Positions 3,129 through 63,226 of a DNA stretch of 64,000 bases are shown here, piece after piece. Origin of the DNA: an uncultured Thermomicrobiaceae bacterium (GTDB lineage: Bacteria > Chloroflexota > Chloroflexia > Thermomicrobiales > Thermomicrobiaceae). The notes under the pieces are model-generated. The model was not told the DNA's origin, did no database searches, and worked only from the letters and a program-made list of their open reading frames with translations. A program made the position numbers and the translations under genes. Numbering within the stretch: position 1 is the first letter of the stretch; the number at the start of each line of letters is the position of its first letter. Location: contig CALKCJ010000044.1 of assembly GCA_938082375.1 (NCBI GenBank), positions 1 through 64,000 of the forward strand. Reading direction: 5' to 3'.

Positions 3129-4637
<1,509 letters not shown>

Positions 4638-4676
4638 GGTTGACCGAGCCGCTGCTCCTCGGCTCGGCGGACGAGG

Positions 4677-6481: not shown

Positions 6482-6543
6482 ACCTCGCTGGTGCGCCAGC
6501 GTGCCCGCGGGCTTGCCCTGGTACGGAAGTGATCGCCTCCGCC

Positions 6544-7626: not shown

Positions 7627-7778
7627 CGCGCTGTCCCCTTCGTCTGTCCCGGATGCTCAAAAGAAGATACTGGCTACCCGTGCCGGACGCAATGGTACCC
7701 GCGTCCCGATCCATCTCGCATCGTACACGAGGAGAAGCGATCGCTTGCAGCTGCGAGGTATCTCAGCGGAAGGAAGGC

Positions 7779-7800
7779 CGGTGACACACCAGTGTCACCG
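7779..7800. promoter_or_regulatory. 22-bp palindrome CGGTGACAC-ACCA-GTGTCACCG in divergent intergenic region
   Basis: Perfect 9-bp arms, 4-nt centre, between a minus-strand start (7626) and a plus-strand start (7984). Confidence 0.45.
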
Positions 7801-7910
7801 AGCGTTTCTGGTGGCCTGAGGTACGGTCCACAGCCCGATTGGGGTCCACGACCTAGCTGTCTCCAGCGGCCAGCCCTCGCCAGCATGGCAGATGCTGGTT
7901 CACGCAGCCG

Positions 7911-7939
7911 TTGACGAGCTTCCTCTTCCAGTCTATGAT
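7911..7939 (+). promoter_or_regulatory. sigma70-like promoter
   Basis: TTGACG (7911-7916), 17-bp spacer, TATGAT (7934-7939), 44 bp before the ATG at 7984. Confidence 0.55.
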
Positions 7940-7983
7940 GGGACATGCACCAACTTCCCCGACGACGGCTCGTGAGGTGAGCC

Positions 7984-8658
7984 ATGACAGGCCATGATAT
8001 CGCTGCGCTCTGGCGGGACATCGGCAGCAGTATCCGCGACCCCGCCGTCAACCGAGCGATCGGTGAGCTTGGTATCATCCGTCATGTCGAACTCGAGAGC
8101 GGCCGGCTGCAGGTTCGGCTCCGCCCCTGTACGCCCGAGTGCTGGCCACTGGCGATGGCCGGGATCGTCCGCGCCATACGGCGCTATGCAGAAGAACGCG
8201 GCTGGCGCGCCGAGGTGGAGGTCGAGCCGACCATGTTGATCCCCCCGGAGAGTATGGACAGCGTTATCCGGGACGTGGAGCGACGTCCCGAGCGCCTGCG
8301 CGAGTTCTGGGAACGCAGCTACACCGTCAGCCTGGCCCACGTAGTCGGCGCGCTCCAGGTCACCGGACTCGACCCGTCGCGTCTGGCGAACCTAACCGTC
8401 GCCGAAGTCGAGCGGCTCATCCCCGAGTCCGGTCGTGACGCGCTGGAGGTCTGGCGAACCTGGCGGCGCCAGCTGGGGCTGCCCGATGGCGGGCTCTTCC
8501 TGCTGGCGGCCGATGGCCGCCCGATTGCCGACCTGGACGCCTGGGCTCGGCGCGCACGACTGGCGCAGGTCACCCAGCGCACGTACGCCGCGATCTGCAG
8601 AGAGACTGCTGACGCGTATCACGCGTCGGAGGGAGGTGGATCGGGAAGCACTGGGTAA
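7984..8658 (+). CDS. conserved hypothetical protein, possible DUF59/MIP18-like N-terminal domain
   Basis: ORF with promoter; IRDPAVNRAIGELGIIRHVELESGRLQVRLRPCTPECWP resembles Fe-S assembly DUF59 proteins. Confidence 0.5.
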   Translation: MTGHDIAALWRDIGSSIRDPAVNRAIGELGIIRHVELESGRLQVRLRPCTPECWPLAMAGIVRAIRRYAEERGWRAEVEVEPTMLIPPESMDSVIRDVERRPERLREFWERSYTVSLAHVVGALQVTGLDPSRLANLTVAEVERLIPESGRDALEVWRTWRRQLGLPDGGLFLLAADGRPIADLDAWARRARLAQVTQRTYAAICRETADAYHASEGGGSGSTG

Positions 8659-45986: not shown

Positions 45987-47552
45987 ATGCCGATCCACTG
46001 GTACTACCAGAACCTGCACGTCCCGGTAGACCGGGACAAGGTCGACGAGCCTTTTGCCCTGTCCGAGGACGGGCGCTACTGGCTGTCCTCGAATATCCGC
46101 TGTTACGCGGCGAACTGGCGGTATTCGAACCAGATCGTCCTGAAGGGGACACAGGCCTGGGGCGTCAGCCACTCGCCCTTCGAACTCATGGTCCCGGTCG
46201 AGTACACCAACTGGCTCGACTGGTTCGCCCGCCAGCTCCGCTTCCGCTTCAACGGCTACGACCCGGAACAGGAGGTCCCGCCGGACGGTCCGTTCGAGGT
46301 ACCGGGACTGGTCCGCCAGCCGTACCCGTACCAGCTCGACGCCGTCCGCTTCTTCGCCCGTAACCGCCGGGGCATCCTGGCCGACGAGCAGGGACTGGGC
46401 AAGACCGTCTCCGCCATCGCCACCATCCAGTGGCTCAACTTCTACCCGGCCCTGGTCGTCTGTCCCGCCTCGATGGTCGGGACCTGGCAGGAGACCTGGC
46501 ACGCCTGGACCGGAGGCACGCGCTCGGTCGGTCCCTACGTACCCGACGGTCAGCAGTGGCCAGACGTAATGGTCATGTCCTGGGACGCCTTCCGGGAGAC
46601 GGTCGGGGAGATCGGCTGGACGCCCAGCCTGGTCCTGGACGAAGCCCACTTCGCCAAGAACGCCGACGCCCAGCGTACCCAGGCCGTCCACACCGCGTCC
46701 GTCTATCCGATCCTGGTCATGGCCCTGACCGGCACGCCCATCGTCAACCGGCCCGAGGAACTCCTGACCCTGCTCGAAGCGATCCGCTGCGTCTGGCCGG
46801 GTAGCTACAAGCCGACCAAGCCGCACGCCGAGAAACTGGTCCGGGAGTGGGTCCTGCGCCGCACCAAGGCCGAGACGCTTCACTTACCGGAAAAGCGGCG
46901 CGTCCCGGTCGAGCTTCCGGTCCCGGAGCCGGAGCGGGTCGACCAGGCGGTCGTATCCCTCTACCAGTGGTGGCGGGAGCGGCACCCGGACGTGTCCGAC
47001 CTCCCGCTCCTGGACGCGCTCGACGCCATCGAACGGTACGAGAGGTCCGAAGGCCTGCTCCGGATCGGACGGGGCTTCGACGAGCTTTCGGAACAGAAGC
47101 TCCCCTTCGTCCTGGACTGGGTCGAGTGGTTCCTGGAGACGAACCCGGAGCGGAAACTGGTCGTCTTCGGCAGGCGGCTCGCCTCGCTCCAGGCCGTCGC
47201 TCAGGAGTTCGGCGGCCTGCTCCTCACCGGTGAGACGGCACAGGCCGAACGGGACCGGATGGTACGACGCTTCCAGGACGGAGACGCCCGCCTCTTCGTC
47301 CTCTCGTACCGGGCGGGCGGCGTCGGGCTCACCCTGACCGCCGCTGCCGACGCCGCCCTCATCGACCTGCCCTGGACCGCAGCCGAGGTCGCGCAGGCCG
47401 AAGACCGTTTGCACCGGATCGGCCAGCAGAACGACGTGACGATCTATCAACTGCTGGCGGACTACCCGTTCGAGCGCGCCCTGCTCGAACGGATCGAACG
47501 GAAGGCGAGACTCGTAACGGAGACCTTGAATGATCGGATGCCCGTACTGTAA
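45987..47552 (+). CDS. SNF2-family DEAD/DEAH helicase (phage/mobile-element type)
   Basis: GILADEQGLGKTVSAIATIQWL, LVLDEAHFAKN, ALTGTPIVNRPEELLTLLEAI, AEDRLHRIGQQNDVTIYQLL. Confidence 0.88.
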   Translation: MPIHWYYQNLHVPVDRDKVDEPFALSEDGRYWLSSNIRCYAANWRYSNQIVLKGTQAWGVSHSPFELMVPVEYTNWLDWFARQLRFRFNGYDPEQEVPPDGPFEVPGLVRQPYPYQLDAVRFFARNRRGILADEQGLGKTVSAIATIQWLNFYPALVVCPASMVGTWQETWHAWTGGTRSVGPYVPDGQQWPDVMVMSWDAFRETVGEIGWTPSLVLDEAHFAKNADAQRTQAVHTASVYPILVMALTGTPIVNRPEELLTLLEAIRCVWPGSYKPTKPHAEKLVREWVLRRTKAETLHLPEKRRVPVELPVPEPERVDQAVVSLYQWWRERHPDVSDLPLLDALDAIERYERSEGLLRIGRGFDELSEQKLPFVLDWVEWFLETNPERKLVVFGRRLASLQAVAQEFGGLLLTGETAQAERDRMVRRFQDGDARLFVLSYRAGGVGLTLTAAADAALIDLPWTAAEVAQAEDRLHRIGQQNDVTIYQLLADYPFERALLERIERKARLVTETLNDRMPVL

Positions 47553-47819: not shown

Positions 47820-48980
47820 TCATTGGGCTGCTGTCACGAGGCGCTTCCATGCGGCCGGGATGAGTTCAGCAGCGATCTCAATCTCTGCTTTCGTTGTGAA
47901 TCTCCCAAGGCCAACCCTGATCGTCGCGTCGGCCTCCTCTCGTGACAGACCGATCGCGGTGAGAACGTGAGAAGGTTCCAACGTGCCAGAGGTACAGGCT
48001 GAGCCTGTGCTGAGAGCAAGTTCGGGCAGATTCAGGATGAGGACATCAGCTTCGATATTTGGAAAGGTGAGGCTGCTATTACCTGGTAATCGGTTCGAAC
48101 GGTTCCCGTTGATTCGCAAACCAGGAATCAAAACCGTGAGCTGACTCTCGAGGAAATCTCGGAGCGCTGCGATCCGAAGGGCTTCCTCATTCATTGAGGC
48201 CAAAGCGAGTCGGCAAGCTTCACCAAATCCAACAATACCGGGAACGTTTGGCGTACCCGACCGTAGATTGAATTCTTGGCCGCCTCCGCGTAGAAGTGGA
48301 GCAAGCTGCCTTCGGAGGCTGGTTCTGATATAAAGAGCGCCAATGCCCTTCGGCCCATAGAGCTTGTGACCGCTAATCGAGGCAAAGTCAATGCCAAGCT
48401 TGCGGACATCGAAGGGAATCTTGCCCACAGCCTGCGCGGCATCCGTATGGACCAGCGCCCCCCGCCGCCGAGCTAGTTCGACAATCGCTTCTAGCGGCTG
48501 AATCGTTCCAATCTCGTTGTTCGCTGCCTGAACCGTAACTAACAGCGTGTCATCGGTTATCGCATCTTCAGCAGCCACAAGGTCGACGGTCCCGTCGCGC
48601 TCTACTGGCAAGACGACTACCTGGTACCCTCGTTCAGTTAGCGCTCGACATGGTTCTAGAACGGCTTTGTGTTCGACTGCGGTGGTCACGATACGGCGTC
48701 GAGGACTTGCTAACTGAGTCAGTCCGAAGATCACGAGGTTATTGCTCTCGGTAGCCCCACTCGTAAAGACGACCTCGTGAGGGTTTGCGTCGATAAGGGC
48801 AGCAACCTGTTCGCGAGCAACCTCGACAGCTTGCGCAGCCCGGCGTCCATAGATGTGGAGCCCGCTTGCCGGATTGCCGAAGTCACGTGAGAAGTACGGG
48901 AGCATCGCCTCGACAACACGCGGATCACACGGCGTTGTTGCGTGATAATCGAGATAGATGGGAGTCTGCATAGTCATCAT
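47820..48980 (-). CDS. cysteine desulfurase (IscS/DndA/SspA-like) in defence operon
   Basis: IYLDYHATTPCDPRVVEAMLPYF, FTSGATESNNLVIFG, SGHKLYGPKGIGALYIR, catalytic loop STGSACTSGTLEPSHVL; 4-bp overlap with upstream gene. Confidence 0.93.
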   Translation of the reverse strand: MMTMQTPIYLDYHATTPCDPRVVEAMLPYFSRDFGNPASGLHIYGRRAAQAVEVAREQVAALIDANPHEVVFTSGATESNNLVIFGLTQLASPRRRIVTTAVEHKAVLEPCRALTERGYQVVVLPVERDGTVDLVAAEDAITDDTLLVTVQAANNEIGTIQPLEAIVELARRRGALVHTDAAQAVGKIPFDVRKLGIDFASISGHKLYGPKGIGALYIRTSLRRQLAPLLRGGGQEFNLRSGTPNVPGIVGFGEACRLALASMNEEALRIAALRDFLESQLTVLIPGLRINGNRSNRLPGNSSLTFPNIEADVLILNLPELALSTGSACTSGTLEPSHVLTAIGLSREEADATIRVGLGRFTTKAEIEIAAELIPAAWKRLVTAAQ

Positions 48981-50416
48981 ATCTTAAGGATCTCATACTC
49001 AATCTGGCGGTCCCACTGCCGATACTCAGCATCAAGCTGATATAGTTCATCCCATATCAGCTGGCGCAGATCGACGGCGGGTCTCACACAATAGTGTTCA
49101 AACTCCCAGTCAGTCAGATCCCCATGCGGGAAGAGGACTTTCATCATGCCACTGGCAAGAGACTGAATGGCTATCTCATTCCGCGCATAGGGGCGTACTC
49201 CACGAACTCGGATTCTACGTGCACAGTACTGATCAATCTCGAGATCTTCACGTAGTGCAAGGAGCGCATCACCGAAGAAGTCAGCCTTCAGCCCAACTGA
49301 GTTTGCGAAGGCCTCCTTGCTCAGCTTGCGGATACGCCAACCTGGCAAGAGTCCCTTTATACGGTCCAAGAACGCTGTCTCTCGCATGAAGGAGGGAAGA
49401 TGTTCCACGAGGGAACTGCTGACAATCGGCTGCTGATTTTCATCGAGCTGGATGTTTGCCAGCAGGACAAAGCTACAATCGCTCGAGGTCTCATAAAGGC
49501 CACCACGCGTTAGCTTCCCATTGGCAAGGTAACCCTTGAGCCCTCCAACAATCTCCTCGGGCTTCTCAAACTTCAGCGTCTGTACCTCGTCAAGGACGAC
49601 GACTGCAAAGCGGGCTAGCAACCCCCATTGTCCGGTTGCGTTGTTCACGAAGAGGACAGCCGGCGTCACGTTTCCGCCGCTCACCAAACGTACGCGGGAA
49701 CTAATGTTCTCAAAGAGGTAACTCTTGCCTGTAGCCTTAGGAGCAAGCTCAATAAGATGCAAGTTCTTTTGGACTAACGGAAGGAGGCGCACGAGCAAGA
49801 GAAGTTGCTCAGGTGCGGTAAAAAACTCGGGTGCATAGCCCATCGAAAGAAGCATTAACCTCAGCCACTCATCGAGTGTAAATGCACTTCGCGCCTCCTT
49901 ATACAGGCGTATATTGACCGTCGCCTGCATCGGGCGGAACGATTGAATTGCGACGCCATCCCCTGTGCTGAGAAGCTCGACCACCCCCCACATCCCCTGT
50001 CTCAGCAAATCCGGATAGATGGATGGCAACTCGTCAGAAATAGCGGCACTGTCGATCCCGAGCAAACTCAACTTCGCGTAGCGCGTCCCACGATTCAGGT
50101 TAACCTCCACCTGAACTGGGGTGAGTACCTTGATCGTTTCTCCCTGAAGTAGACGGTGCTTAATGACCTGTTGATCGTTCGGCCCCGGTACGTACTTGGC
50201 GGCCCAGTCGCGAACCTTTTGCGCTTCCTCGCTCGTAAGTTCGCCTCGGCCAGGAACCAAGGTATCGAGCAGCCACTCGCCGACATACGCAGGCACGCCC
50301 CGCTTTTGAAGCTGGCTCGCTGGCAACCGGCGCTTATCAATCACGAGTCCTCGGAAGACCCGCTCAACCTTGTCCGCGAGGGACTCGGTGTCCTGTATCA
50401 CCCGCACACCCGTCAT
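48977..50416 (-). CDS. brxL: BrxL-like AAA+ protein, short form without Lon protease domain
   Basis: IELAPKATGKSYLFENISS (Walker A-like), LARFAVVVLDEVQTLKF (Walker B), MRETAFLDRIKGLLPGWRIRKLSKE; 479 aa ending after the AAA+ region. Confidence 0.82.
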   Translation of the reverse strand: MTGVRVIQDTESLADKVERVFRGLVIDKRRLPASQLQKRGVPAYVGEWLLDTLVPGRGELTSEEAQKVRDWAAKYVPGPNDQQVIKHRLLQGETIKVLTPVQVEVNLNRGTRYAKLSLLGIDSAAISDELPSIYPDLLRQGMWGVVELLSTGDGVAIQSFRPMQATVNIRLYKEARSAFTLDEWLRLMLLSMGYAPEFFTAPEQLLLLVRLLPLVQKNLHLIELAPKATGKSYLFENISSRVRLVSGGNVTPAVLFVNNATGQWGLLARFAVVVLDEVQTLKFEKPEEIVGGLKGYLANGKLTRGGLYETSSDCSFVLLANIQLDENQQPIVSSSLVEHLPSFMRETAFLDRIKGLLPGWRIRKLSKEAFANSVGLKADFFGDALLALREDLEIDQYCARRIRVRGVRPYARNEIAIQSLASGMMKVLFPHGDLTDWEFEHYCVRPAVDLRQLIWDELYQLDAEYRQWDRQIEYEILKI

Positions 50417-52596
50417 GGCAGGTCCTCCAGGATGGTCGTCTTCTCGTATAGGGCCTCACTACGGATGTCGACATCGGCCACCCGGCTCGTCCGGCGATCG
50501 CCGCTTGGAAGCCGGTAACCAAGTGTGGCCGTTGCGTGCCGGCATGCTTCTGGAGTGGGCCACTCATCGAGTTCTCGCGAGACGCTTGCTTGCGTCCGTG
50601 CACCGACTTCCTGATCGAGTCGAATCTGCTGTACCTTACCGCTGAGAGATATCTCTACCCATTCAAGGAAGACGGGGAAATCGTTCTCGTTGATCACCCT
50701 GAGCGTGAGTTCGCCAGGCTGACCTGCACGACCAGTACCAAGAACCGAAGTCTTCGGTTCACGAATCATCGCATCGCGAAGCAGTTCAACCCAAGGCACG
50801 AAAAGCTCCTCAGGAAAGAGGCCACCATGTGGAAACCAATCCTCCCCACCACGTCCATCGTTCGTGACAAACGATCGGTCGGAAAGCACAATGTGATACG
50901 TCATGCCCGTTGGAAGATCATAGGATCGGGCGTCGAGGATCGCGATATCATCCTTAAGGAGGAAGCCTTCCTCACGCGTCGAAAGCTCAGGTGGCCCCCA
51001 GGCTGCTCGCCCGTGTGCGAGGCAACCCGGAGGCACCGGAAGCTCGCGCGAAGACTTGCCCAGCAGCCGACCATGATCTGAAGTCAGCACGATACGCAGC
51101 TTAACCTCAGGCGGCACCCGTTCGACGATCTCTCGCAACCAATATGCCACCGAGCTTAGCTGGCTTTCGACATTCGTCAACAGCTCGTCCCAATCGTGTG
51201 ACTGGTGATACGTTCGGTCAGGCTCGACGAGACGCCACGCAATGACAGCCCCCGGCGGTGCGCTCCGCAGTGCATTGATCACTGCCGACATGCGGCTCAC
51301 GACATCACCAGCATGCTCATCGAATTGGGTCTGATCTGGTGGCAATCCGCGGAGCAGTGCGTCCTTCGCAAACTCGGTAACCGTCGGTATCGGCGCCAAG
51401 ACCACATCTTCCGCGAGAACCATGAGCCGGTCTGATGCAAGGCGAATTCGCTGGAGCAAATAACGAAGATCACGCATCCCTAACCCATCGAAGACGACAA
51501 GCAAGGTAACGGGACCTGCGCGTTCACTCCTAAGCTTGCTGACACGAGCCCAACCGAACCAATTAATTCCAGCTTCACTGCTTCGCAAGGAATGATAGAG
51601 GCGGAGATACCATTCACCGAACTTCTGACCGATCTCCCTTGCCCGCTTCAGCACCTCTGGATCTTGAGAAATGACCGTCCATTCTCGCCAAGGCAGGTAG
51701 CTGTCCCGAAACCAGTCAGGAACAAGCTCAAAGCTTTCAGGCGGAAAACCCGGGTCAGGTGGCGGGCAGAGCCGTTGCAGCTCGTCTACGTCCTTTATGG
51801 GTAGATAACGTCGAAGAACCTCGAATTTCTCGCGGTTCAGATGCTTCGGATGCGCACGGAAATGCGCTGCTGCCTCTTGGGCAAGGAGATTCCACGCTTC
51901 GGGCCGCAAACCATACCGAGCCCACTTATCGAAGGCCTGTCCATCGCTCTCGATGAGGCGCTTGCGGATCCTCTCGATGAGTGCACGCGCTACCTCTGTA
52001 GGCATCGGCGACAGCGAGAACTCCATCCAGAACGAGAGATGTGCCGGATTTGCAAACCCGCACGCTTCTTCGAGAACGCCGAGCGCCTTCTCGCGTGTCA
52101 CCGCCTCATAGCAGCGGGCTGTAAGGCCTTCAGTCTTAGCGCGCCACTGCGCAGCGACCGAGCCCGCGAGCACACTCTCGGCATCGTGTGGATCATGAAC
52201 GATCAACCAGTACAGCCAGCGAATCGCGTGGTCCCGACTCGGCTCCTGCAGCCAGAGATCACCGCCCCAGAGCGCATCGGCGAGAACTCGGGGGTCGAGT
52301 GGCCTTGGGAGATCCCATACTCTTGCACCAAGTCGCTCAGCGATTTCTTGGGCCTGCCTCTCCGTCATGCCCCGGCACACCTCTTGGAGCTCATCGCCCG
52401 GCGCCCGAACGTCACGTATATCCCACTTGCGGGCATCTGCAACCGCCCTAGCCCACTCACAGAGTTTGCGTCCGCGTACCAGCAGTGTCGTACTCGATGA
52501 GACCGCGTGCAAGAAGGACACATCGTCCTCAATCAGGCAGGCGTCTGGCCTAGAGGGATATTGAGAATGCTCGTCGAGCCAGACAAGCCGTGTCAT
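50413..52596 (-). CDS. pglZ: PglZ-domain alkaline-phosphatase-fold protein
   Basis: VTLLVVFDGLGMRDLRYLL, PIPTVTEFAKDALLRGLPP, KLRIVLTSDHGRLLG; adjacent to BrxL and BrxC-like genes with 4-bp overlaps. Confidence 0.88.
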   Translation of the reverse strand: MTRLVWLDEHSQYPSRPDACLIEDDVSFLHAVSSSTTLLVRGRKLCEWARAVADARKWDIRDVRAPGDELQEVCRGMTERQAQEIAERLGARVWDLPRPLDPRVLADALWGGDLWLQEPSRDHAIRWLYWLIVHDPHDAESVLAGSVAAQWRAKTEGLTARCYEAVTREKALGVLEEACGFANPAHLSFWMEFSLSPMPTEVARALIERIRKRLIESDGQAFDKWARYGLRPEAWNLLAQEAAAHFRAHPKHLNREKFEVLRRYLPIKDVDELQRLCPPPDPGFPPESFELVPDWFRDSYLPWREWTVISQDPEVLKRAREIGQKFGEWYLRLYHSLRSSEAGINWFGWARVSKLRSERAGPVTLLVVFDGLGMRDLRYLLQRIRLASDRLMVLAEDVVLAPIPTVTEFAKDALLRGLPPDQTQFDEHAGDVVSRMSAVINALRSAPPGAVIAWRLVEPDRTYHQSHDWDELLTNVESQLSSVAYWLREIVERVPPEVKLRIVLTSDHGRLLGKSSRELPVPPGCLAHGRAAWGPPELSTREEGFLLKDDIAILDARSYDLPTGMTYHIVLSDRSFVTNDGRGGEDWFPHGGLFPEELFVPWVELLRDAMIREPKTSVLGTGRAGQPGELTLRVINENDFPVFLEWVEISLSGKVQQIRLDQEVGARTQASVSRELDEWPTPEACRHATATLGYRLPSGDRRTSRVADVDIRSEALYEKTTILEDLP

Positions 52597-55500
52597 GGTT
52601 GCGCGACGCCTCCAACAAGCTGCATCAGCCGATCCAGAAGCGCACGCCGCCGCTGCGGATCACGAATCCGCTGGAAGTAGTGTTCGACTTGTCGCTCTGC
52701 GTCCTCCTCGAGCGCCTGCTCAACACGTCGTCGTAGCTCAGCGAGGCGAGGGGATTGGTCAGGAGGGAGGAATGGCGGTGGACGATCAACCACGTCCTTT
52801 AGCGCCAGTAACTCCTCGGGGCGGCTGAGCCGGCCTTCTAGCTTCGTTAGCCAGTCAAGCGCTGCTTGCACCCGCTTGTTGGCTTGCTCCTGGATATGCT
52901 TGATCGCGTTTTCTATGGCTGTTCGTTGGACCTCACTGAGCTCGGCGAATGTGACGCCGAGCTCGCGAAGACGCCGACAGCCCTCGTCGACATCCTCAGG
53001 TCGTTCGAGCGGCCGACTTCGCAGATTGGCTACCTCAGTGAACAGCTGCTCGAGGCTCTCGGCCCGCGTAAGTATCCCTTCAATCACTTGTGCCTCAGGA
53101 GTCTCCTCGAAGAGGCGGCGCTCTTGCAACAAGCGATCGCGCACTTGTCGGACACTCGGGACCTCAGCAGCCTGCTGGAGCTGCTGCTGAAGTTGGCCAA
53201 TAAGATGCTCTAGTGTGGTAATCCGCGCACTGATCTCTTGGCGCTTGGACTTCCATTCCTCCTTGACCGTCCCTGTTTGTGGCTGCATCGACTCGAGCTT
53301 CTCGCGATAGCGACGAAGCGTCGCGAGATCGGTGCTCGGACGCACAGTCATCGCGGCCATCTCTGCCTGGATAGCTCGATCATGCTCGCGAGCCCGCTCG
53401 TCCTGCTCTAATCGCTCGCGAACGGTAGCCAAGCGCTGGATCGCCGATCCTACTTCGGTCGCTAACCCATCGAGACCTCGGCTTTGGAGCTTCTCGCGAA
53501 GCGTCGTGAGAGCCGCTGCATGCCGATTATAATCTGCCAATACCGTTAGCTGCTCGTACTGTGAATAGATACTCCTGGTGAGCTTCTGGATGTGAGCTAG
53601 CAGCAACGCACTGAGGTGCTGTTTCGACGGGCCACTTGCCTGCACAAAGCCGTTATAATCACCGAGTCGTCCGCGCCGTTCCCACCCTTCAAGTAGCTTG
53701 TCGAGGTCTTCACTGGTAAGGGCCAGTTGCTGAAGCTCGTGGATCTGGCGGTCATACTCCCGTGCAGCGGCGAGTTCCTTCTCCAGACGTGCCTTCGCCG
53801 TGGCGAAGTCGCGATATTGATCACCGTCCAACTCCAGGTTCTCAAGTGCGCTCTGCAACGTCTGGATATCCTGCTCTGCCTGTTGCTGCGAGATTGCCTC
53901 GCGCCGAGCGATGCGCTCTACAATCTCGCGTGCCTTGCTCTCGAGTTCCGATGGATTTCGCCTCGTGATCGTCGAGCGCGCGAGCTTCGCGATGACGTCC
54001 TGAGGTCTGGCCAGTCCTCTGCTTCCGCCTTCAAACAGCGTCTCGAGTGCGCGAAGTTGGCCGTCTACGCTGAGATCCAACTCTCTGCGGTTGTATCCAC
54101 ACCAGGCACTAAATAGCAGCGTTAGCGTCTGAGAGTCGTATCCATAGGGCGGGTTCAAGAGCTCGACAAGAATTCCCTTAAGCTGGACTCCCTTTGCTCC
54201 GCGCTGAATCCGCTCCTCCAAGAGCTGCCAACCATGGGTAATCGGGCTAGTTGATGGTGGAGGCTGAATCGAGTGCGAGTCTGTCAGAAGTTTCCATTTC
54301 CCAGATAATGCGAGGAACCTGTCTATAAGGTCTTTAGCGACCGGATCCAAGCGCAGGGTCGAGTAGGCCGTCACAAGGCCATCTTTGGACAGCGCATGCG
54401 CAACCACCGATACCGCTTTTGTCAGTTTCGAGCTTTGGGCACCATATTGGGTGAAGAATTCACGCGGACCGCTGTAATAGGCTCGGTCGAAGAGTTCCCG
54501 CATGAGCTGATCTAATGATGGGACTCGTGAGAAAGCTATGAGGCTACGAAATCGTTCGGGCATAATCGGGTCAGATATACGCTCGAGATTCTTCAGAATT
54601 CTCGATGCCTGCTGTGCCTCATTCCTTCGCATGGCTTCATAAGCGTCTGGTCCGCATTCCTGAATCTCACTGTGGGTAAATTCTAGTAGAGCAGCAAGTC
54701 GTTTCAGCGAGTTCAGAAGCTCAGGGCTTGGCTGCCGAGGTCGCATCAGTACCACGGGCAAGTTGGGATATCCCACAGCTTTAGCCACTGTATCGAGAAG
54801 TTGATGCCCCTGCTCTCGAAAGTATCGTACGTCCTCTTCCGTCTCTACTAAGGGCCAGATGACTAAGCCGCGAGCGCTGATCGGTGCTCCAGGCTGCGCA
54901 AGGATGCCCTGCACGAGTCCTCGAACGACACTTTCGGAGAACTCGCTTCGGACCACAAACGCATGTCTAGCCTGCCAATCCTGTGGAGAACCCCAGGGGA
55001 TGCTCACAGTAATCGAGCTAATCGCTCCTTGTTCCCCAAGGTCATTCACCACCTTCCGCAATGTCCTCCCCTCCAAGGCCAACTTCACCAGCTTGTCCCG
55101 AATCAAGGGCTCAACTTTGATCGGGCCGCGACTTCCCCAGAACAGGTAGCGATTATCGGCCGCATCGTGTCGCAGCACCAATCGCCGCACGAGTTCCTCG
55201 AGTGCCTCCTTGACCCGTCGATGGTCGAGCCCACAGAATTGAGCGATCACTCTGGCTGGATCGGCTGACTTCGTGGGCACATCGCCGACCTGCAGGAGAA
55301 GGACTGCTTTGAGCACCGTCTTGAGAATCGGATCGGCGTCCGGTCCTACATCCTGAATGGCTTGACGGTAATCCTCTCGAGCGCGATCGGGTAGCATGTC
55401 TTCGAACCAATCGACGAGCTCGATCGGCAGTATCCAGTTCACTTGGCCATCATCGCGGAAGACCGGCTCAGATTGCTTTGCACGCACGCGTTCGAAGAGA

Positions 55501-56798
55501 AAGCGGAGCACCGAGCGGGGCTGCGTCGGCTGACCGTAACTGATCGACGAGAACAGCGCCGTCGTCGCTGGGTGCAGAGGGAAGCAACCCTGTACAACCT
55601 TGTCGCGGAACTGGTCTGGAGACCAGCGCAGCCCCTCGATGTATCGTCGCTTGAAGATGCCGAGGGTGAGACTAATTGCTTCGTCTACCTGCCTCCGGAA
55701 CTCAGGCTGTAGGCTCAAATTACGCCAGACACCCTCATCCTGGGAGAGATAAGAGTCGACTACCTCTTCCAGAACAGACTTCAACGTGAACCGTTGATCC
55801 AGCCGATCAAGCTCCTTCTGGACACTTGTCAGCTTCGACTCGTACGCGCCTGACTGTTCTACCACAGTGCGTGGGTCATGTTGGGCAAATGCCACGAAGG
55901 TCACCCGCCCTCGGTGTCGCTCAACGCCACTCAGCAAGTCCTGGAGGGGAGCTCCTTCGCCGACCAAGTCGCCGCGGGCATAGTTATGCACGAACGTGCT
56001 GAACTCATCGAACAGAATCAGCGCTCCAGCGAACGGCTTGCCTTCTCCAGCCAACTCATCAGCTGTCCACTCGACCATCTCACGAAGGCTCGACTCTCCA
56101 AAGGACGGATACACGCCATACAGAAATTTGAAGAGTTCCCGACAGGGGCCATACGCCGTCATGCTCCGATCTCGAACTTGCCCCTCAAGTACCGCGAGAT
56201 CGAGCCCGTATTGGCGGAGAAACTCATCCGCTTCTGCACGGCGCTCCTCCTTCGCTCGCCGCAGGAATTCCTCGGCATCGGAGAACCACCACCGTGGGCG
56301 GGTATTTCTCGTAGCCTCGTGTGCCTGCAAGGCTGCCTCGAGCGCACGCCCGAACTTCGACGAGAGATAGATCGGCGGCTCATCACCGCGGAGCAGGACT
56401 ATCAGGAAAGGCTTTCGGCTGGCTCTGAAGCTCTCAAATCTTTGCATCTGAGAACTGTTGCCAAGGACGTGTCGAAGCTGACTCAGTATGGCTTTATACG
56501 CTGGGCAATCCGTTGGCTGCCCGAAGTAATTGGCGGCCGCCACGGCAAAGTGACTCTTGCCGTGGCCGTAGTTCGCGATGACTACGAGGCGGTTAGAGGT
56601 AGAACCAGGAATGAAGGTCTCACACAGCGTCCACAGCAGCTCCACGGAACCCAGCTCATAGCCCTGCTCGCTGCTGGTGAAGATGTAGCTCTTCGCCAAC
56701 TGCAGGTTGCGCTCTTCGTCCCAATACGAGTCGAGTTGGACGTCCGGATGGAAGTCCCCATGCACGTTGATTCGAACCAGGTCACCAATGCGCGTCAT
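52593..56798 (-). CDS. BrxC/PglY-like giant P-loop ATPase (~1400 aa)
   Basis: LVVIANYGHGKSHFAVAAANYFG Walker A, GALILFDEFSTFVHNY Walker B, long coiled-coil C-terminus; overlaps pglZ start. ORF opens at 56822. Confidence 0.85.
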   Translation of the reverse strand: MTRIGDLVRINVHGDFHPDVQLDSYWDEERNLQLAKSYIFTSSEQGYELGSVELLWTLCETFIPGSTSNRLVVIANYGHGKSHFAVAAANYFGQPTDCPAYKAILSQLRHVLGNSSQMQRFESFRASRKPFLIVLLRGDEPPIYLSSKFGRALEAALQAHEATRNTRPRWWFSDAEEFLRRAKEERRAEADEFLRQYGLDLAVLEGQVRDRSMTAYGPCRELFKFLYGVYPSFGESSLREMVEWTADELAGEGKPFAGALILFDEFSTFVHNYARGDLVGEGAPLQDLLSGVERHRGRVTFVAFAQHDPRTVVEQSGAYESKLTSVQKELDRLDQRFTLKSVLEEVVDSYLSQDEGVWRNLSLQPEFRRQVDEAISLTLGIFKRRYIEGLRWSPDQFRDKVVQGCFPLHPATTALFSSISYGQPTQPRSVLRFLFERVRAKQSEPVFRDDGQVNWILPIELVDWFEDMLPDRAREDYRQAIQDVGPDADPILKTVLKAVLLLQVGDVPTKSADPARVIAQFCGLDHRRVKEALEELVRRLVLRHDAADNRYLFWGSRGPIKVEPLIRDKLVKLALEGRTLRKVVNDLGEQGAISSITVSIPWGSPQDWQARHAFVVRSEFSESVVRGLVQGILAQPGAPISARGLVIWPLVETEEDVRYFREQGHQLLDTVAKAVGYPNLPVVLMRPRQPSPELLNSLKRLAALLEFTHSEIQECGPDAYEAMRRNEAQQASRILKNLERISDPIMPERFRSLIAFSRVPSLDQLMRELFDRAYYSGPREFFTQYGAQSSKLTKAVSVVAHALSKDGLVTAYSTLRLDPVAKDLIDRFLALSGKWKLLTDSHSIQPPPSTSPITHGWQLLEERIQRGAKGVQLKGILVELLNPPYGYDSQTLTLLFSAWCGYNRRELDLSVDGQLRALETLFEGGSRGLARPQDVIAKLARSTITRRNPSELESKAREIVERIARREAISQQQAEQDIQTLQSALENLELDGDQYRDFATAKARLEKELAAAREYDRQIHELQQLALTSEDLDKLLEGWERRGRLGDYNGFVQASGPSKQHLSALLLAHIQKLTRSIYSQYEQLTVLADYNRHAAALTTLREKLQSRGLDGLATEVGSAIQRLATVRERLEQDERAREHDRAIQAEMAAMTVRPSTDLATLRRYREKLESMQPQTGTVKEEWKSKRQEISARITTLEHLIGQLQQQLQQAAEVPSVRQVRDRLLQERRLFEETPEAQVIEGILTRAESLEQLFTEVANLRSRPLERPEDVDEGCRRLRELGVTFAELSEVQRTAIENAIKHIQEQANKRVQAALDWLTKLEGRLSRPEELLALKDVVDRPPPFLPPDQSPRLAELRRRVEQALEEDAERQVEHYFQRIRDPQRRRALLDRLMQLVGGVAQP

Positions 56799-57285
56799 CA
56801 TTGTCGCTCCCTCCCGGGCCATTGTCGGAAATGTCAGCGACCCTACCAGCCTGTTGCCAGCGGCCTCGCTGTGTCATCGGAAAGAGGTGGAAGGCATCCC
56901 GTGGTAGAACGAGGATCAGGGCGTTCCGCCGGCGCTTAAATGAGTCAAAGAGAAACATCCACACAGCGTCGCGCTCATGCGGGCTGAGACGAGCCAAGGG
57001 GATATCGGCGTTGGCTAGCAGGATGCATCCCGTGGGGGCATCCTGATTCGCGATCGATTCTAGATCAAGAAGGACTTGGTCCCGATCCAGGCCGATAAAG
57101 CGCTGCTCAGGCTTGATTCGTTCCAATTTCCACATAAGGTAGTCGACATAGTCGATCCCGTGCTGTGCGGCGATATCCGGGCCGCGAGCGAGCTCGTCCA
57201 CCGGCACGAGCGCCACCGCGGTGCGTACCAGGAGCGATGTCTGACGAAGCTGGTGGACGACGTGCCAGAGGCTAGTGGATGGCAT
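56782..57285 (-). CDS. small BrxF-like protein lacking a P-loop
   Basis: MPSTSLWHVVHQLRQ...GCILLANADIPLARLSPHERDAVWMFLFDSFKRRRNALILVLPRDAFHLFP; Walker-B-like strand but no Walker A; overlaps neighbours on both sides. Confidence 0.5.
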   Translation of the reverse strand: MPSTSLWHVVHQLRQTSLLVRTAVALVPVDELARGPDIAAQHGIDYVDYLMWKLERIKPEQRFIGLDRDQVLLDLESIANQDAPTGCILLANADIPLARLSPHERDAVWMFLFDSFKRRRNALILVLPRDAFHLFPMTQRGRWQQAGRVADISDNGPGGSDNDDAHW

Positions 57286-58108
57286 AAGCGCGCTCCAGGA
57301 TCGAGCGAGGGGCATCTGGACCCCACTTGCGTACAAGTTGATATGGGGGTGCCACACGATAGAGGTCGATGAGATTCTCCTGGCGCAGAGCGACAAGGAG
57401 ATTTTCAACCATTGGAGCATCGAGGAGGAAAATGCTCGGAAGACTACCAGGCTCGAAGAGATCTGACAGGTTCACTGTGGCGCGATCACCCCATTGATGG
57501 GTCCAATAGTCGACGAGCGCGTACGCGAAGGCCCACACCGGCACTGGCTCAGGTTGAGTGACAGCAAACTGCCCACTCCCTACCTTCCTGAGGAGACGTA
57601 GTTGATGGAGTCCTTCCGTCTTTGCGTATGATCCGATGAAAACGGTCGCTGCGCTTCGTATCGTGCGCTCTCTAAGTTGCTTTCCCTCGCGGTCCCGGAG
57701 TGCCTGCGCGATCTTCTCGGCAAGGTCGCGAGGAGTGATTTGCTGACCAACGCGCAGGACACGCGTGACCAGATAATGCCAAAACCATGGCCCCGGACCA
57801 TGCGGCGCACTCAGATGATAGTGCATTAGCCACTGTGTAGTTAGTGTGGAAAGGCTAGAATCTTTACTGCTGACAATATTACCGAAGATAGTAAATTGCC
57901 CATCCTCATCAATTAGGCCAGATCTGTACACATAGCGACGATATGCTTCAACCTGTATAGTACCCAAATTTGTAGATCTTCGAAGATTATCGGACGATAT
58001 CGTGTTACCTTCCATTAGGGCTTGGATTACTTCCCAAAGAGCAGCTCGACGAAGTGCAAACGTGCGATGGAAGGATATGCCGAAATGATCAACTTTATCG
58101 GCCCGCAT
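57272..58108 (-). CDS. divergent DUF4007-like protein (second copy)
   Basis: HFGISFHRTFALRRAALWEVIQALMEGN and C-terminal FLLDAPMVENLLVALRQENLIDLYR resemble the layout of the DUF4007 protein at 62306-63226. Confidence 0.55.
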   Translation of the reverse strand: MRADKVDHFGISFHRTFALRRAALWEVIQALMEGNTISSDNLRRSTNLGTIQVEAYRRYVYRSGLIDEDGQFTIFGNIVSSKDSSLSTLTTQWLMHYHLSAPHGPGPWFWHYLVTRVLRVGQQITPRDLAEKIAQALRDREGKQLRERTIRSAATVFIGSYAKTEGLHQLRLLRKVGSGQFAVTQPEPVPVWAFAYALVDYWTHQWGDRATVNLSDLFEPGSLPSIFLLDAPMVENLLVALRQENLIDLYRVAPPYQLVRKWGPDAPRSILERAYAIH

Positions 58109-58133
58109 ATCCCCTCCTCTTGCTGGTCCTCGT

Positions 58134-58952
58134 CTAGAGATGGCAAATAAGGCAGCCTATGGCCTCATCGGAATCATCAAGTAGGATGTCCATGAGGGAG
58201 CCGGAGCTGTTCCAGTTATCCATCCGCGCGCACCTACGACCATGTTGTTCACGAATCTCGGCGATACGCTCTGGTCGCGCCAGTTCAGTGAGGCTCTCGC
58301 GGCTATTCCAGGTGTAGCGTTCGCCTGTGAGCTCATCTACTCGTTCGAAACTCGCAGCCTTCCAGAAAAGGTCCGGGTGATTCTCCAGTAATCCAACCCA
58401 TTCGATTCGCTGCTGGAAGAAACAGAAATAGCAGCCAGAACGAGAACGCCAGCGATAATAATCTGGCAACCCTAAGCCACTTTCCTTAAGTATCCGGATC
58501 ACATCATCTTTACCGATATTATCCTCGACAAAAGGATATCGTGGAATTATGTTTGGCTTCTTTGATATATATCCCTTGCGATGCGCTTCGTCTGCCCGAA
58601 TAGCGATGTAATTGAACGCCTTGTCATCGCCGACATATTCTTCAAATGGCTTGATCTTTAGGTATTCAGTACACCACCGAACAGCTGGCGATGGCAGAAA
58701 ACCGCGCCGTGCGGCCAAGAGATCCTTGAAGGTATGCCCCTTTGCTCGCAGCCTTTCAATCCTTCTCCCCAGATATACCTCTAATCGATCAAGGTATTCA
58801 TAAGTCTCTGGCAGCTCTTCGCCGGTGTCGCAAAAGACGTATTCGAGGTCCGGGGTGCGGTCACGAAGGTAGATGGCAAGGGCAGTGCTGTCCTTGCCGC
58901 CGGAGAGCGAGAGGATATGCCGAACACGGCCTGTGTCGTCACCCATACGCAT
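58134..58952 (-). CDS. PAPS-reductase/DndC-like ATP-pyrophosphatase (SspD/BrxP-like)
   Basis: LSLSGGKDSTALAIYLRD PP-loop, VRWCTEYLKIKPFEEY, RSRSGCYFCFFQQRIEW, C-terminal CLICHL; Cys arrangement fits a 4Fe-4S cluster. Confidence 0.88.
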   Translation of the reverse strand: MRMGDDTGRVRHILSLSGGKDSTALAIYLRDRTPDLEYVFCDTGEELPETYEYLDRLEVYLGRRIERLRAKGHTFKDLLAARRGFLPSPAVRWCTEYLKIKPFEEYVGDDKAFNYIAIRADEAHRKGYISKKPNIIPRYPFVEDNIGKDDVIRILKESGLGLPDYYRWRSRSGCYFCFFQQRIEWVGLLENHPDLFWKAASFERVDELTGERYTWNSRESLTELARPERIAEIREQHGRRCARMDNWNSSGSLMDILLDDSDEAIGCLICHL

Positions 58953-58976
58953 GTCCTTGTCCAGACTAATGATACA

Positions 58977-61900
58977 TCAGGTCGCGTCACGAAGCAAGCG
59001 CAGTAGGGCGGCTCGCAGCACATGTCGAGGGACATCAGCGGGCAGGAGCTCGCGGAGCTGTCCCACGATCGCCTCACAGACGGTCTCCTCATCGGGAGCG
59101 AGAATCTCGTGAGCGGCCGCGATCTCCCGGAACCGTTCGCCGATAACGGTAGCCTGCATCTCAAAGCGTTCCACGTCGGCATCGGCCCAGGCACGCGGCG
59201 GGCGGTTAGCTACCAGCGCAAGCACGCTCTCCACGGTGGTTGCATCATCCTGCTCCGAGCTAAGCCGTCTGAGAAACGGTTCCAGCATCGGCACATTGGT
59301 CACGCAGTTCAATTCCCGGGCGGTATCACGGAGCTGTCTCCAGCCTGACATCCCCGCCGGCAGTCCACATGCCTGGAGCAGTGCATCTCGCGATTCCGCA
59401 ATAAGGCGCGGCGTCGCCTGGCCTAACTCTGCAAGCGCCCAGTTAAGCCGATCGAAGAAGCGAGCGATCCGCTCAGGGTCGTCCTCTGTGTCCGCGAAAG
59501 GTATATCGCCGAGCGCCACCGGGAGATCGTAGAAGAGGAAACGCTCCGGCGCGCGAGCTGTTGCGCAGGCCTCCCGCACTTGGATCACCTCTGGGGGAAG
59601 CTGGCGCGTACGCCATGCATGCTCGGGCAGCGATCGAACCATGCGGAGCAGCGCTCGCACCACCGGAAGAACGGCCGGTTCAACGTTCAACCCGCGTGCT
59701 AGCCGCTCAATGACGGCTTGGCGTGCTCCGGTGAGACGCACGCCACCGACAGCGAAAAGTTCCGGTCGTCGCATGAGAACCTCGAAGTCCGCCACGCTGG
59801 GCTCCGGTACGAATGTTCCTTCTCGGTAGAGGCTGACAGCGTTGCGATGCACCTGGAGGAATGCGCAGAGAAGGATGGGAAGGACACCTTCCATGGCTCC
59901 GTAGGGGGGAACCGTGAGCTGGGAGAAGAGCCGGTCAACGGCGATCGGCTCCTCGATCGCAGCGAAGACTAATCGCTCCATCTCTCTCCAGACTGGTGCC
60001 ACTCGTGCTCGATGTTCATCGTCGCCCGGGGGCTGGAACGACCAGCGGCCAGTCGTGTCGGGACGATGAAGCCCAGTAGCGTGAAGCACCGATTCGTAGA
60101 TGGCACGTTCAGGCGGGAACCCCGCAATTCCGAGCCTTGCCTGTTCGGGGAAGGTGAGCATACGTTCGATCAAGTTGCGCCTGGCTGCAGCAGCGGCGGA
60201 TGAGAGCGCTCGTCGATTAATGAGCTCATTGCGAATGCGCGGGCAGCGCGCATAGACTCGATCCATAGCATCCGAGAGCAGCGCAGCGACAGCGCGCGGA
60301 TGCGTAACCTCCTGCCTTTGTCCGAGCCAATACCACGCACAGTTTGTGCCTATAGGGGATGGGCGAGGATCGAGAAGACGCTCGATGAGCTGCGAGATTT
60401 CTCTCTCGACATCGGCCATTCGCAGGTCAAGTTCCCTGCGAGCAATGCGATCATCACGTAAACTGGGTGTGTTCTCGCGGGCCCAGTTAAGTGCGATAAG
60501 CTCTGCCGCTGCCTCCTGAAGCTGGCCAAGCTGTTCGGGCAAGGCAACGATGATGTCGGCGCGCGTTGCCGGTTCGCCTGTGCTGGCCCACTGTCGGAAC
60601 GCTTCGAACTGTGCTTGGTTGGGCGGAAGGCAGCAGGCGATCACGCCATCACCCTCGCGCGGACGAAGCTTCCCCGGAGTAGGAGGCTCGTCCAGATACC
60701 AGACCTCGAAGAAGCGCAGAGCACCGGTCTCGTAGCTATGGCGCCGTGCAACTTGGGGGCGAGGTGGCAAGTACCGGCGCAGTGCTTCGGCTAAACGGTA
60801 TTGCCCCGCAGTCTTGCTGCGCGCTTCGTCAACGCGCGCGGCGATATCAACATCACTCCCTTCCCATACGCGGTAGCTGCGGTTGAACCGCCGGTAGACA
60901 AGCACCGATCGCTTGGTGAGTTCATCGAGGGCGGTAGCGACAGCGGCGTCATCAAAGCTATCGGTTAATGCGAAGCTGATGAGCTGCGGCGTCGCGCGCA
61001 GATGGCTTCCCTCAGCCAGGACGTCGAGGACGCCGACCGTCTTGATTATCGCCACCTCGCGCGCGCTGAGATCCGGATGCTCCTCCAACTTCTGGACGAC
61101 CTCGAGCCAACGCTGCAAGAGCGAGTGGCGTTGCACGCTCCCGGCAAGGTTCGCTGCAACATAGTCGAAGAGATCAGGGATGCGCACCCAACTCCCAGGA
61201 TACTGCTTGATCCTGTCCTGGACGCCAAACGGCTCCTGCCCGAGCAGGTATGTAAAGAGGGATCGCTCATTTTGGGCGAATCGACGAAAGAGGTAGGGAA
61301 GCACAACCAAGACAACAGGGTGTAACGGAGCAGCACGCGCGGCAAGGGAAGCGAATGATGCATGATCGATGGTACGCGGACGGAGCCCGAGATCTGCTGA
61401 GGCGGCGGATTCTACAACTGCTGCGATTGACGCTTCGCTCGGTCCGACAAGCGCATCGCTGTCCGCGATAGCATCAGCGGCCAACCGAATAAGCTGTTCA
61501 GGAGGTTCAATAAAGGCAACATCGGCATAGCGCCCCTGTACCTTGGCCCACTCACGCCGCATCAGGGTATCGAGGTGTCGAGCGTACTGGTCGAAAGCTT
61601 GATGCAGCACGCCGAGCACCAGAACCGGCCTCTCACCGCTTCTGCTGGCATACTCAGCCAGCTCTTGGAGAAGGAAGATGTCACCGCGGTAGGGATCCCG
61701 AGCCGCGTACTCGAGGATCTTGCCCAGCTCATCGATGACAACGACGATCCCATGATAGCCAGCCTCTTGGATGGATCTCATGAGACTCTCGAGTGTCGCT
61801 AAGATCTCACGCGGGTCCGAAACGGTCTCAATGCCTGAGGCAATAAGCCCCTCGATCCTGGAGCGCAGGCGCTCGATATCGGGCGATGCGGGAAGACGCA

Positions 61901-62303
61901 TGAGTGCCTCAGCCACGGCCGTGAGCAAACAGCGGGTGAGGGACGTCCGGCGGGCAGTGATCGGAAGGGGGAAGAGCCGGCGTCCCTTGAGGCTCCTCAT
62001 CAGATCCTGGGCGAGGAGTACATCATGCTGGCGAAGCAGATGCCATGCCTCGCTGTTCGCGGTGTCTCGATCACCGAACAGGTGCAGAGCAAAGAGCGCG
62101 AAAGCGGATTTCCCCGTCCCATAGGGGCCGGTGATCGTCCAGGCACGCTCGGTAGAGGAACTTGACAGCGCATCTGCGAGGCGCCTGAGTATCTGCTGAA
62201 CCTGCGGCGTCAGCACGTAATGCGAGAGAGCGCGGGGATCCTGCCAATCGCGCTCGAGCTGCACGGACCTGAGAAAACGTTGTCCAATGGTTCCCTGAGT
62301 CAT
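58977..62303 (-). CDS. large P-loop ATPase, SspC-like
   Basis: TITGPYGTGKSAFALFALHLFG Walker A, IVVVIDELGKILEYA Walker B; 1108 aa; located between DndC-like and DUF4007 genes. Confidence 0.75.
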   Translation of the reverse strand: MTQGTIGQRFLRSVQLERDWQDPRALSHYVLTPQVQQILRRLADALSSSSTERAWTITGPYGTGKSAFALFALHLFGDRDTANSEAWHLLRQHDVLLAQDLMRSLKGRRLFPLPITARRTSLTRCLLTAVAEALMRLPASPDIERLRSRIEGLIASGIETVSDPREILATLESLMRSIQEAGYHGIVVVIDELGKILEYAARDPYRGDIFLLQELAEYASRSGERPVLVLGVLHQAFDQYARHLDTLMRREWAKVQGRYADVAFIEPPEQLIRLAADAIADSDALVGPSEASIAAVVESAASADLGLRPRTIDHASFASLAARAAPLHPVVLVVLPYLFRRFAQNERSLFTYLLGQEPFGVQDRIKQYPGSWVRIPDLFDYVAANLAGSVQRHSLLQRWLEVVQKLEEHPDLSAREVAIIKTVGVLDVLAEGSHLRATPQLISFALTDSFDDAAVATALDELTKRSVLVYRRFNRSYRVWEGSDVDIAARVDEARSKTAGQYRLAEALRRYLPPRPQVARRHSYETGALRFFEVWYLDEPPTPGKLRPREGDGVIACCLPPNQAQFEAFRQWASTGEPATRADIIVALPEQLGQLQEAAAELIALNWARENTPSLRDDRIARRELDLRMADVEREISQLIERLLDPRPSPIGTNCAWYWLGQRQEVTHPRAVAALLSDAMDRVYARCPRIRNELINRRALSSAAAAARRNLIERMLTFPEQARLGIAGFPPERAIYESVLHATGLHRPDTTGRWSFQPPGDDEHRARVAPVWREMERLVFAAIEEPIAVDRLFSQLTVPPYGAMEGVLPILLCAFLQVHRNAVSLYREGTFVPEPSVADFEVLMRRPELFAVGGVRLTGARQAVIERLARGLNVEPAVLPVVRALLRMVRSLPEHAWRTRQLPPEVIQVREACATARAPERFLFYDLPVALGDIPFADTEDDPERIARFFDRLNWALAELGQATPRLIAESRDALLQACGLPAGMSGWRQLRDTARELNCVTNVPMLEPFLRRLSSEQDDATTVESVLALVANRPPRAWADADVERFEMQATVIGERFREIAAAHEILAPDEETVCEAIVGQLRELLPADVPRHVLRAALLRLLRDAT

Positions 62304-62305
62304 GA

Positions 62306-63226
62306 CTACGCTCGCGCTCGGAAATACTGCTCTAACAGACCCTTCCCGTCTATAGGGCGACGCACGTAGAGTTGCTGCAAACCGGCGGTCTCATCGACAG
62401 TCAGATCCCCGGCCGTTAACGACTCCAGTTCTTCGACGTAGTCCATGAGCGATGCCTCGTCGAGCTTGAAGACCTGACCAGGACTGAGCGGCTGGTAAAG
62501 GCACTCATGGACGCTCAGGGTCCGGCGAGTGCCTCCGATCTGGTCGAAGAAGGATAAGAGGACAACAGCTACGATCTCAACCGGTAGCGTTGGCTTCGGC
62601 CCAATTGCGAACTGATAGGTGATGCCGTCGGGCTGAAGTTGCAAGAGCCCAAGCTCGACGAGGGGACAATTGAAGGTATCCTCGAGGACTTGACGTTCGC
62701 TCAAGCGCGAGGGCGTATAGGTGCGCACGAAGCAATCGATGTCCCGTCGGATGGTGCCGGGATTGGCCCGAAGGCGAGAGCGCTCGACGAATCCCAGCAC
62801 GAAGTTCGCTAACGTCTCCTTCCGAAAATCCGGGTACGGATAGTGGTTGAACACGAGGCACCAGGTTGCGGCCTTAGCGGGGTTGCTAACCAAAAGCCAA
62901 TGGAGAAGCCAGAGAGAACCAGGATCTTCGAGATAGGGATCGCAGCCATCCAGGAATAGCAGCTTGCCCCACTCAGAGATATACAGCCCTTGTATTTGGT
63001 CCGACTCTCTCAAGATCTGGGTGGCGAGTCCCCAATGACGAATGCTCTCGACCATATTCTTCCCAACGCCAAGGGTGACGAGGGCATCATCGCGGCGGAA
63101 GACGTTCCCATCGTCGTAGACCGCATCTACGGCCTTCTTCAACCAGCCGTATCGAAATGGAAACGTTTGATGGCCAGAGAAGCCGTATCGACCCTCAGCG
63201 CTAGGTCTTCCAAGAGAGTCGGTCAT
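62306..63226 (-). CDS. DUF4007 protein (SspB-like)
   Basis: YGFSGHQTFPFRYGWLKKAVDAVYDDGNVFRRDDALVTLGVGKNMVESIRHWGLA is a DUF4007 signature; first gene of the operon. Confidence 0.82.
   Translation of the reverse strand: MTDSLGRPSAEGRYGFSGHQTFPFRYGWLKKAVDAVYDDGNVFRRDDALVTLGVGKNMVESIRHWGLATQILRESDQIQGLYISEWGKLLFLDGCDPYLEDPGSLWLLHWLLVSNPAKAATWCLVFNHYPYPDFRKETLANFVLGFVERSRLRANPGTIRRDIDCFVRTYTPSRLSERQVLEDTFNCPLVELGLLQLQPDGITYQFAIGPKPTLPVEIVAVVLLSFFDQIGGTRRTLSVHECLYQPLSPGQVFKLDEASLMDYVEELESLTAGDLTVDETAGLQQLYVRRPIDGKGLLEQYFRARA

Follow-up and report, generated by a model that had tools for sequence, protein, structure and literature searches.

The window analysed here, a 64,000-nucleotide stretch of DNA from an uncultured Thermomicrobiaceae bacterium taken at its full length, carries nine genes, all on the minus strand, that cover positions 47820-63226. 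Our reading of the open reading frames bore out the nine co-directional genes and the order described in the initial annotation, and the products, which fall into a phosphorothioate (PT) writer of the SspABCD type and a BREX-type half, are as follows in the order SspB, SspC, SspD, DUF4007-2, F, BrxC, PglZ, BrxL, SspA:

62306..63226, minus strand: SspB (DUF4007), DNA-binding/nicking component of the PT writer (Pfam DUF4007, 4.7e-82; PADLOC SspB, 9.8e-92)
58977..62303, minus strand: SspC, ORC/Cdc6-type ATPase of the PT writer (PADLOC SspC, 1181 bits, residues 3-1052 of 1054)
58134..58952, minus strand: SspD, PP-loop sulfurtransferase of the PAPS-reductase family (PADLOC SspD, 4.8e-107)
57272..58108, minus strand: DUF4007-2, second DUF4007 protein, SspB paralogue by sequence (Pfam DUF4007, 4.8e-17)
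56782..57285, minus strand: protein F, 167 aa, AAA+-like five-stranded fold without a Walker A motif (structure model, pLDDT 91.8)
52593..56801, minus strand: BrxC-fold ATPase, 1402 aa (Foldseek, residues 1-600)
50413..52596, minus strand: PglZ, putative nuclease of the alkaline-phosphatase superfamily (PADLOC PDLC02549, 1.1e-209, residues 2-725 of 726)
48977..50416, minus strand: BrxL, short form (NCBIfam TIGR02688, 568 bits, cut-off 329)
47820..48980, minus strand: SspA/DndA-type cysteine desulfurase (PADLOC DndA, 5.3e-154; SspA, 7.2e-153)

Eight of the nine proteins have a family or fold match, protein F being the exception; none appears truncated when compared with its own family, and all of the catalytic motifs that we checked are intact. 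With homology-guided starts, the gaps are 2 bp (SspB to SspC), 24 bp (SspC to SspD) and 25 bp (SspD to DUF4007-2), DUF4007-2 overlaps F by 14 bp and F overlaps BrxC by 20 bp, and the BrxC-PglZ, PglZ-BrxL and BrxL-SspA junctions are each 4-bp overlaps. Since two of the overlaps are this long, the spacing given earlier, 4-bp overlaps or gaps of 2 to 25 bp, fits only six of the eight junctions. SspB starts with an ATG at 63226, and a search for a promoter-like site upstream of it found none.

The operon sits within an island of approximately 40.5 kb that interrupts a threonine aldolase gene (window 45559/contig C44:86043), which is intact in a sister genome with 91 to 96% identity. The target duplication at the island ends is at most 1 bp, and no integrase was seen. 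An SNF2-type helicase ORF (45987-47549), convergent with the operon, resembles the helicase domains of ZorD/DpdE. This flanking SNF2 protein, the tail of the truncated aldolase and a zinc-finger ORF were rejected as members of the system, as they stand beside no other copy.

Proteins of the writer and of the BREX half

All four components of an Ssp writer were identified. In the family and structure searches, the PP-loop protein proved to be SspD and the first DUF4007 protein SspB, the latter also matching solved SspB structures (PDB 6juf/6lb9, 8.8e-41). The SGGKDS, RWC, CxxC and C-terminal CxxC residues of SspD, as well as the pyridoxal phosphate lysine and catalytic cysteine of SspA, are 100% conserved in the homologue alignments, and the Walker A and B motifs of SspC are intact. 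The complete SspA/B/C/D set that had been claimed to share an operon with BREX genes is thus confirmed by PADLOC, Pfam and motif conservation. Neither SspE nor SspFGH adjoins the operon according to PADLOC, the neighbors being BREX genes, and none of the nine proteins was matched to a methyltransferase by Pfam or PADLOC. The genome itself yielded a single DUF262 protein, which is HEC-05-like, lies on another contig (C33) and was rejected as SspE; HEC-05 is a candidate defence family, and this DUF262-type relative is at locus L110.

The presence of PglZ, BrxL and a BrxC-like ATPase, also part of the initial annotation, likewise held (PADLOC, TIGR02688 and Foldseek, respectively), and these three proteins, BrxC by the fold of residues 1-600, place the operon within BREX in general. 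For BrxC residues 1-600 (model pLDDT 87.0), the best five Foldseek matches are all BrxC structures, with a top E value of 2.5e-10, while the curated BrxC models of PADLOC and NCBIfam do not match the 1402-aa ATPase; its Walker A glycine-lysine and Walker B DE are 96 to 100% conserved in the homologue alignment. The DG, YH and DHG motifs of PglZ are invariant in 38 to 40 homologues. BrxL matches a solved BrxL (PDB 8emc, 3.4e-50), and its Walker residues are 100% conserved in the homologue alignment.

Two further relationships connect the halves. DUF4007-2 matches the SspB profile with 99.6% probability (E value, 1.1e-23), which by profile comparison makes it a divergent SspB paralogue, and it is probably the DNA reader of the BREX half. 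The 1402-aa BrxC in turn matches SspC at 99.7% in profile comparison, and SspC also matches the BrxC cluster PDLC02478 in PADLOC with 1606 bits. Judged by these relationships, a predicted reader-motor pair is present twice, as SspB with SspC and as DUF4007-2 with BrxC.

The label "BrxF-like," which had been given to protein F, could not be upheld. Pfam, PADLOC and NCBIfam returned no family match for the protein, its alignment lacks a Walker A motif, the structure model has weak fold matches to AAA+, RFC and ORC proteins, and no BrxF was matched in the genome itself. Profile comparison with both BrxF and BrxB gave less than 1% probability, the same as the negative controls, and both identities were rejected; the label therefore describes position and fold class only, not sequence. 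In Acinetobacter BREX, BrxC, BrxB and PglZ form a complex (title of PDB 9zll), and because protein F occupies the corresponding position and its distances track those of BrxC and PglZ at 0.83, it is a good BrxB candidate, probably acting as an adaptor. Like the operon, this type I BREX (PDB 9zll, 9zn5) has the BrxC fold and a small-protein gene adjoining BrxC and PglZ; unlike the operon, it is methylation based, and no sequence similarity between BrxB and protein F was detected.

Recurrence in other genomes

An alignment search of genome contigs with BrxL found 38 loci, 2 of them in records shared with the phylum search, mostly in Chloroflexota, with the remainder in Armatimonadota, Acidobacteriota, Myxococcota and Bacteroidota; PglZ as a single-sequence query against the genome contigs gave no match. 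Among these BrxL-selected loci, the order SspC-SspD-DUF4007-2-F-BrxC-PglZ-BrxL is kept wherever the contig reaches, and SspA is usually last. Two DUF4007 genes were present in 20 of the 25 records searched and a strong SspB match in 23, and the combined results give all nine genes in order in at least 15 records besides the window, from several phyla. Of the 400 genomes in the phylum sample, 5 had the PglZ cluster and 2 had BrxP. The family and fold matches of all but the 167-aa protein, together with an order that recurs in many unrelated genomes, indicate that the nine-gene arrangement is not due to chance.

A plasmid of Thermomicrobium roseum DSM 5159 carries the nine genes in an order identical to that of the window (TRD_RS09730-TRD_RS09770), with identities of 63% for SspC, 85% for BrxL and 49% for BrxC. 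On the megaplasmid, this copy (L069) has a type III-B CRISPR cluster as its neighbor. Two loci, L047 and L065, are apparently damaged, lacking SspD, DUF4007-2 and F, and have a fragmented SspC or PglZ. A divergent copy on a Pseudanabaena galeata plasmid (L079) has been invaded by an Uma2-type gene and a toxin-antitoxin pair of the PemK type, and its SspB has a putative methyltransferase, PT-associated, as a neighbor. The view that this copy lacks SspB and SspC was rejected, both genes being farther upstream, behind the toxin-antitoxin insertion.

A two-module reading and its alternatives

The two halves of the operon can be separated, as in locus L032 the SspBCD part and the BREX part are on opposite strands. 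Elsewhere, plasmid-borne SspBCD is found not with BREX but with SspFGH-type genes or with a DndB/helicase/HerA-like/PLD set. Within the set F, BrxC, PglZ and BrxL, pairwise distances show correlations of 0.77 to 0.91, and those of SspC, SspD and SspA correlate with any other gene at only 0.53 to 0.67; the BREX-linked SspD of Pseudanabaena clusters with cyanobacterial PLD-linked SspDs with a support of 100/100. The operon is thus made up of a BREX core whose genes coevolve and a writer that is exchanged more freely, and DUF4007-2 with BrxC accordingly parallels SspB with SspC as a second predicted reader-motor pair.

We propose, with a probability of roughly 0.78, that the operon is a self-contained, two-module PT defence in which sulfur placed by SspABCD labels the cell's own DNA and the BREX core shuts out DNA without this label. 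In this scenario, SspA would take sulfur from cysteine, SspD, with its PP-loop and Fe-S-type cysteines, would transfer it, and the SspB-SspC reader-motor complex would put it on one strand of the host DNA. The BREX core, comprising DUF4007-2 as the reader, BrxC as the AAA+ motor, F as a Walker-less adaptor, PglZ as a metal-dependent nuclease, and BrxL, would scan DNA and block or damage that without the host mark. For this operon, we infer PT chemistry, a target motif, gating by self/non-self and the exclusion of phages; a literature search found no PT measurement for any strain carrying it in the open literature. The gating may instead consist of PT-stimulated attack, as with SspE, and SspD and DndC relatives could modify something else.

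The literature already describes PT-coupled BREX under the name BREX type 4 (PMC12839542; PMC11931770), and brxPCZL has been named as a PT writer family (PMC11931770). The claim of a PT-BREX coupling that includes the desulfurase was therefore overstated, even though the complete set is indeed found in one operon. With type 4, the operon shares a PT-type writer in place of a methyltransferase, as judged from the sequence, BrxC, PglZ and BrxL, and a desulfurase, which type 4 often has. Unlike type 4, it has separate SspB, SspC and SspD proteins rather than the PAPS reductase-DUF4007 fusion BrxP, a second DUF4007 protein, a second ATPase and a standalone small AAA+-like protein. The PADLOC BrxP model gives 30.6 bits on SspD and 16 bits on DUF4007-2, compared with 850 bits on the BrxP of a canonical type 4 locus (L072), and the type 4 PglZ model NF033445 reaches 18.7 bits on the operon PglZ, below its cut-off of 140. 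In L072, the canonical type 4 BrxC is represented by two overlapping ORFs (4339-8515), a split gene or a frameshift.

These comparisons bear on the possibility that the operon represents a standard BREX type 4 whose BrxP has come apart into SspD and DUF4007-2. SspB and SspC would then be redundant, and a single motor, BrxC, would drive writing as well as exclusion, just as it does in canonical type 4. SspD does align to the PAPS half of the BrxP model and DUF4007-2, weakly, to its C-terminal half, and a desulfurase is found in the type 4 loci of 56% of taxa (PMC12839542). We nevertheless regard this explanation as unlikely: nearly all copies on a sufficiently long contig keep SspB and SspC, PADLOC assigns canonical type 4 BrxC, PglZ and BrxL to clusters other than those of the operon, and profile comparison does not convincingly match the DUF4007 half of BrxP to either of the two DUF4007 proteins. 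Lacking BrxP, falling into other PADLOC clusters and having a doubled reader-motor pair, the operon is not a canonical type 4. Of the description as a "BREX-4-like/Ssp hybrid," the joining of SspABCD to a BREX core stands, and the type 4 likeness is less apt. "SspABCD writer plus BREX effector core" is a better fit, because SspBCD elsewhere has other effectors in the same position. Systems of SspABCD with SspFGH or SspE (PMC8092258, PMC9646914) similarly combine the complete SspABCD set with an effector cassette, which in our operon, unlike in those systems, is the BREX core.

Slightly less probable still is that two independent neighbors in a defence island have been taken for one system, SspABCD having an undetected effector elsewhere; the only moderate distance correlations between writer and BREX core, the opposite strands in L032 and the different origin of the Pseudanabaena writer would fit, yet DUF4007-2 and the BREX core are constantly interleaved between SspD and SspA in a tight operon across many phyla, and the genome's one DUF262 protein is the HEC-05-like one on another contig.

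The proposed two-module defence matters for genetic dissection. Canonical PT-BREX has to rely on a single reader and a single ATPase for marking as well as exclusion, so that genetics can hardly tell the two roles apart. In the operon, marking and exclusion each seem to be served by a separate reader-motor pair, and single-gene deletions could therefore assign the two roles. The components are known to defence databases, as PADLOC models closely match several of the nine proteins. We found no description of the nine-gene layout, or of the standalone sulfur reader within it described below, in the open literature that was searched; the layout in several phyla and the swappable sulfur-reader gene of sister copies appear to be undescribed.

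SspD and the standalone sulfur-binding-domain gene

In 9 of 28 operons (L011, L030, L040, L043, L048, L049, L059, L060 and L062), a standalone sulfur-binding-domain (SBD) gene of approximately 155 codons is located exactly between SspD and DUF4007-2. Its product matches the solved SBDHga1 (8h0l, 1.4e-23) and, weakly, an NCBIfam PT-DNA restriction family. The sulfur cavity of ScoMcrA is formed by H116, R117 and P165 (PMC6224610), and the equivalents of these residues, a lysine in the case of R117, are kept in every SBD sequence covering those positions. The window has no SBD gene, its SspD-DUF4007-2 gap being just 25 bp, and a search of its genome, run without a positive control, gave no match.

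SBD gene presence follows SspD alone among the operon genes. On the SspD tree, it requires two to three changes, compared with six to eight in shuffles, none of which was that low; on the SspC, DUF4007-2, F, BrxC, PglZ, BrxL and SspA trees, it requires six to eight, the same as the shuffles. Within SspD, a 34-residue block beside RWC (residues 67-100 in window numbering), delimited by inspecting the data themselves, gives two changes alone, the sequence outside it six, and the region to its right, with a weaker SBD signal, four. The SBD-linked version of the block reads Y.GVLPDARTRWCT and the other R.GFLPSP.VRWCT. Among seven independent pairs on the BrxC tree that differ in SBD, the block type differs in the same way in six to seven and in the opposite way in none (sign test, p 0.016-0.031; 0.031-0.0625 on the PglZ tree). 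SspD and the SBD gene are neighbors, so joint transfer can explain part of this covariation.

The segment of SspD before RWCT seems to be effector specific across L074-L085 and the window, reading GGMLPSNHRRWCT with SspFGH and DGLLPSPQMRWCT with the PLD set; BREX-linked SspDs have GFLPSP.VRWCT or GVLPDARTRWCT there.

The T. roseum SspD has the SBD-type block, that is, the other type than the window's, with no SBD gene found adjoining. SspC, BrxC, PglZ and BrxL place the window operon beside L062 and T. roseum, whereas the window SspD falls in the SBD-less group, and the AU test rejects its joining L062/T. roseum (p 0.0009). SspD therefore looks to have been exchanged in the lineage of the window.

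This opens the way for a further, tentative hypothesis, which we consider possible though rather doubtful. SspD would exist in two versions that differ in the 34-residue block, one accompanied by a standalone sulfur reader and the other without it, and recombination would swap the writer-reader cassette, changing the PT motif and the matching reader together. With the two SspD versions, the determinant of the PT motif can be tested directly, and T. roseum, Levilinea saccharolytica, Anaerolinea thermolimosa and Hymenobacter are cultured hosts with natural versions; L. saccharolytica KIBI-1 lacks the SBD gene, and A. thermolimosa IMO-1 carries it. If the hypothesis is true, PT-BREX systems that are otherwise stable could change their epigenetic password, the PT motif, through cassette swapping.
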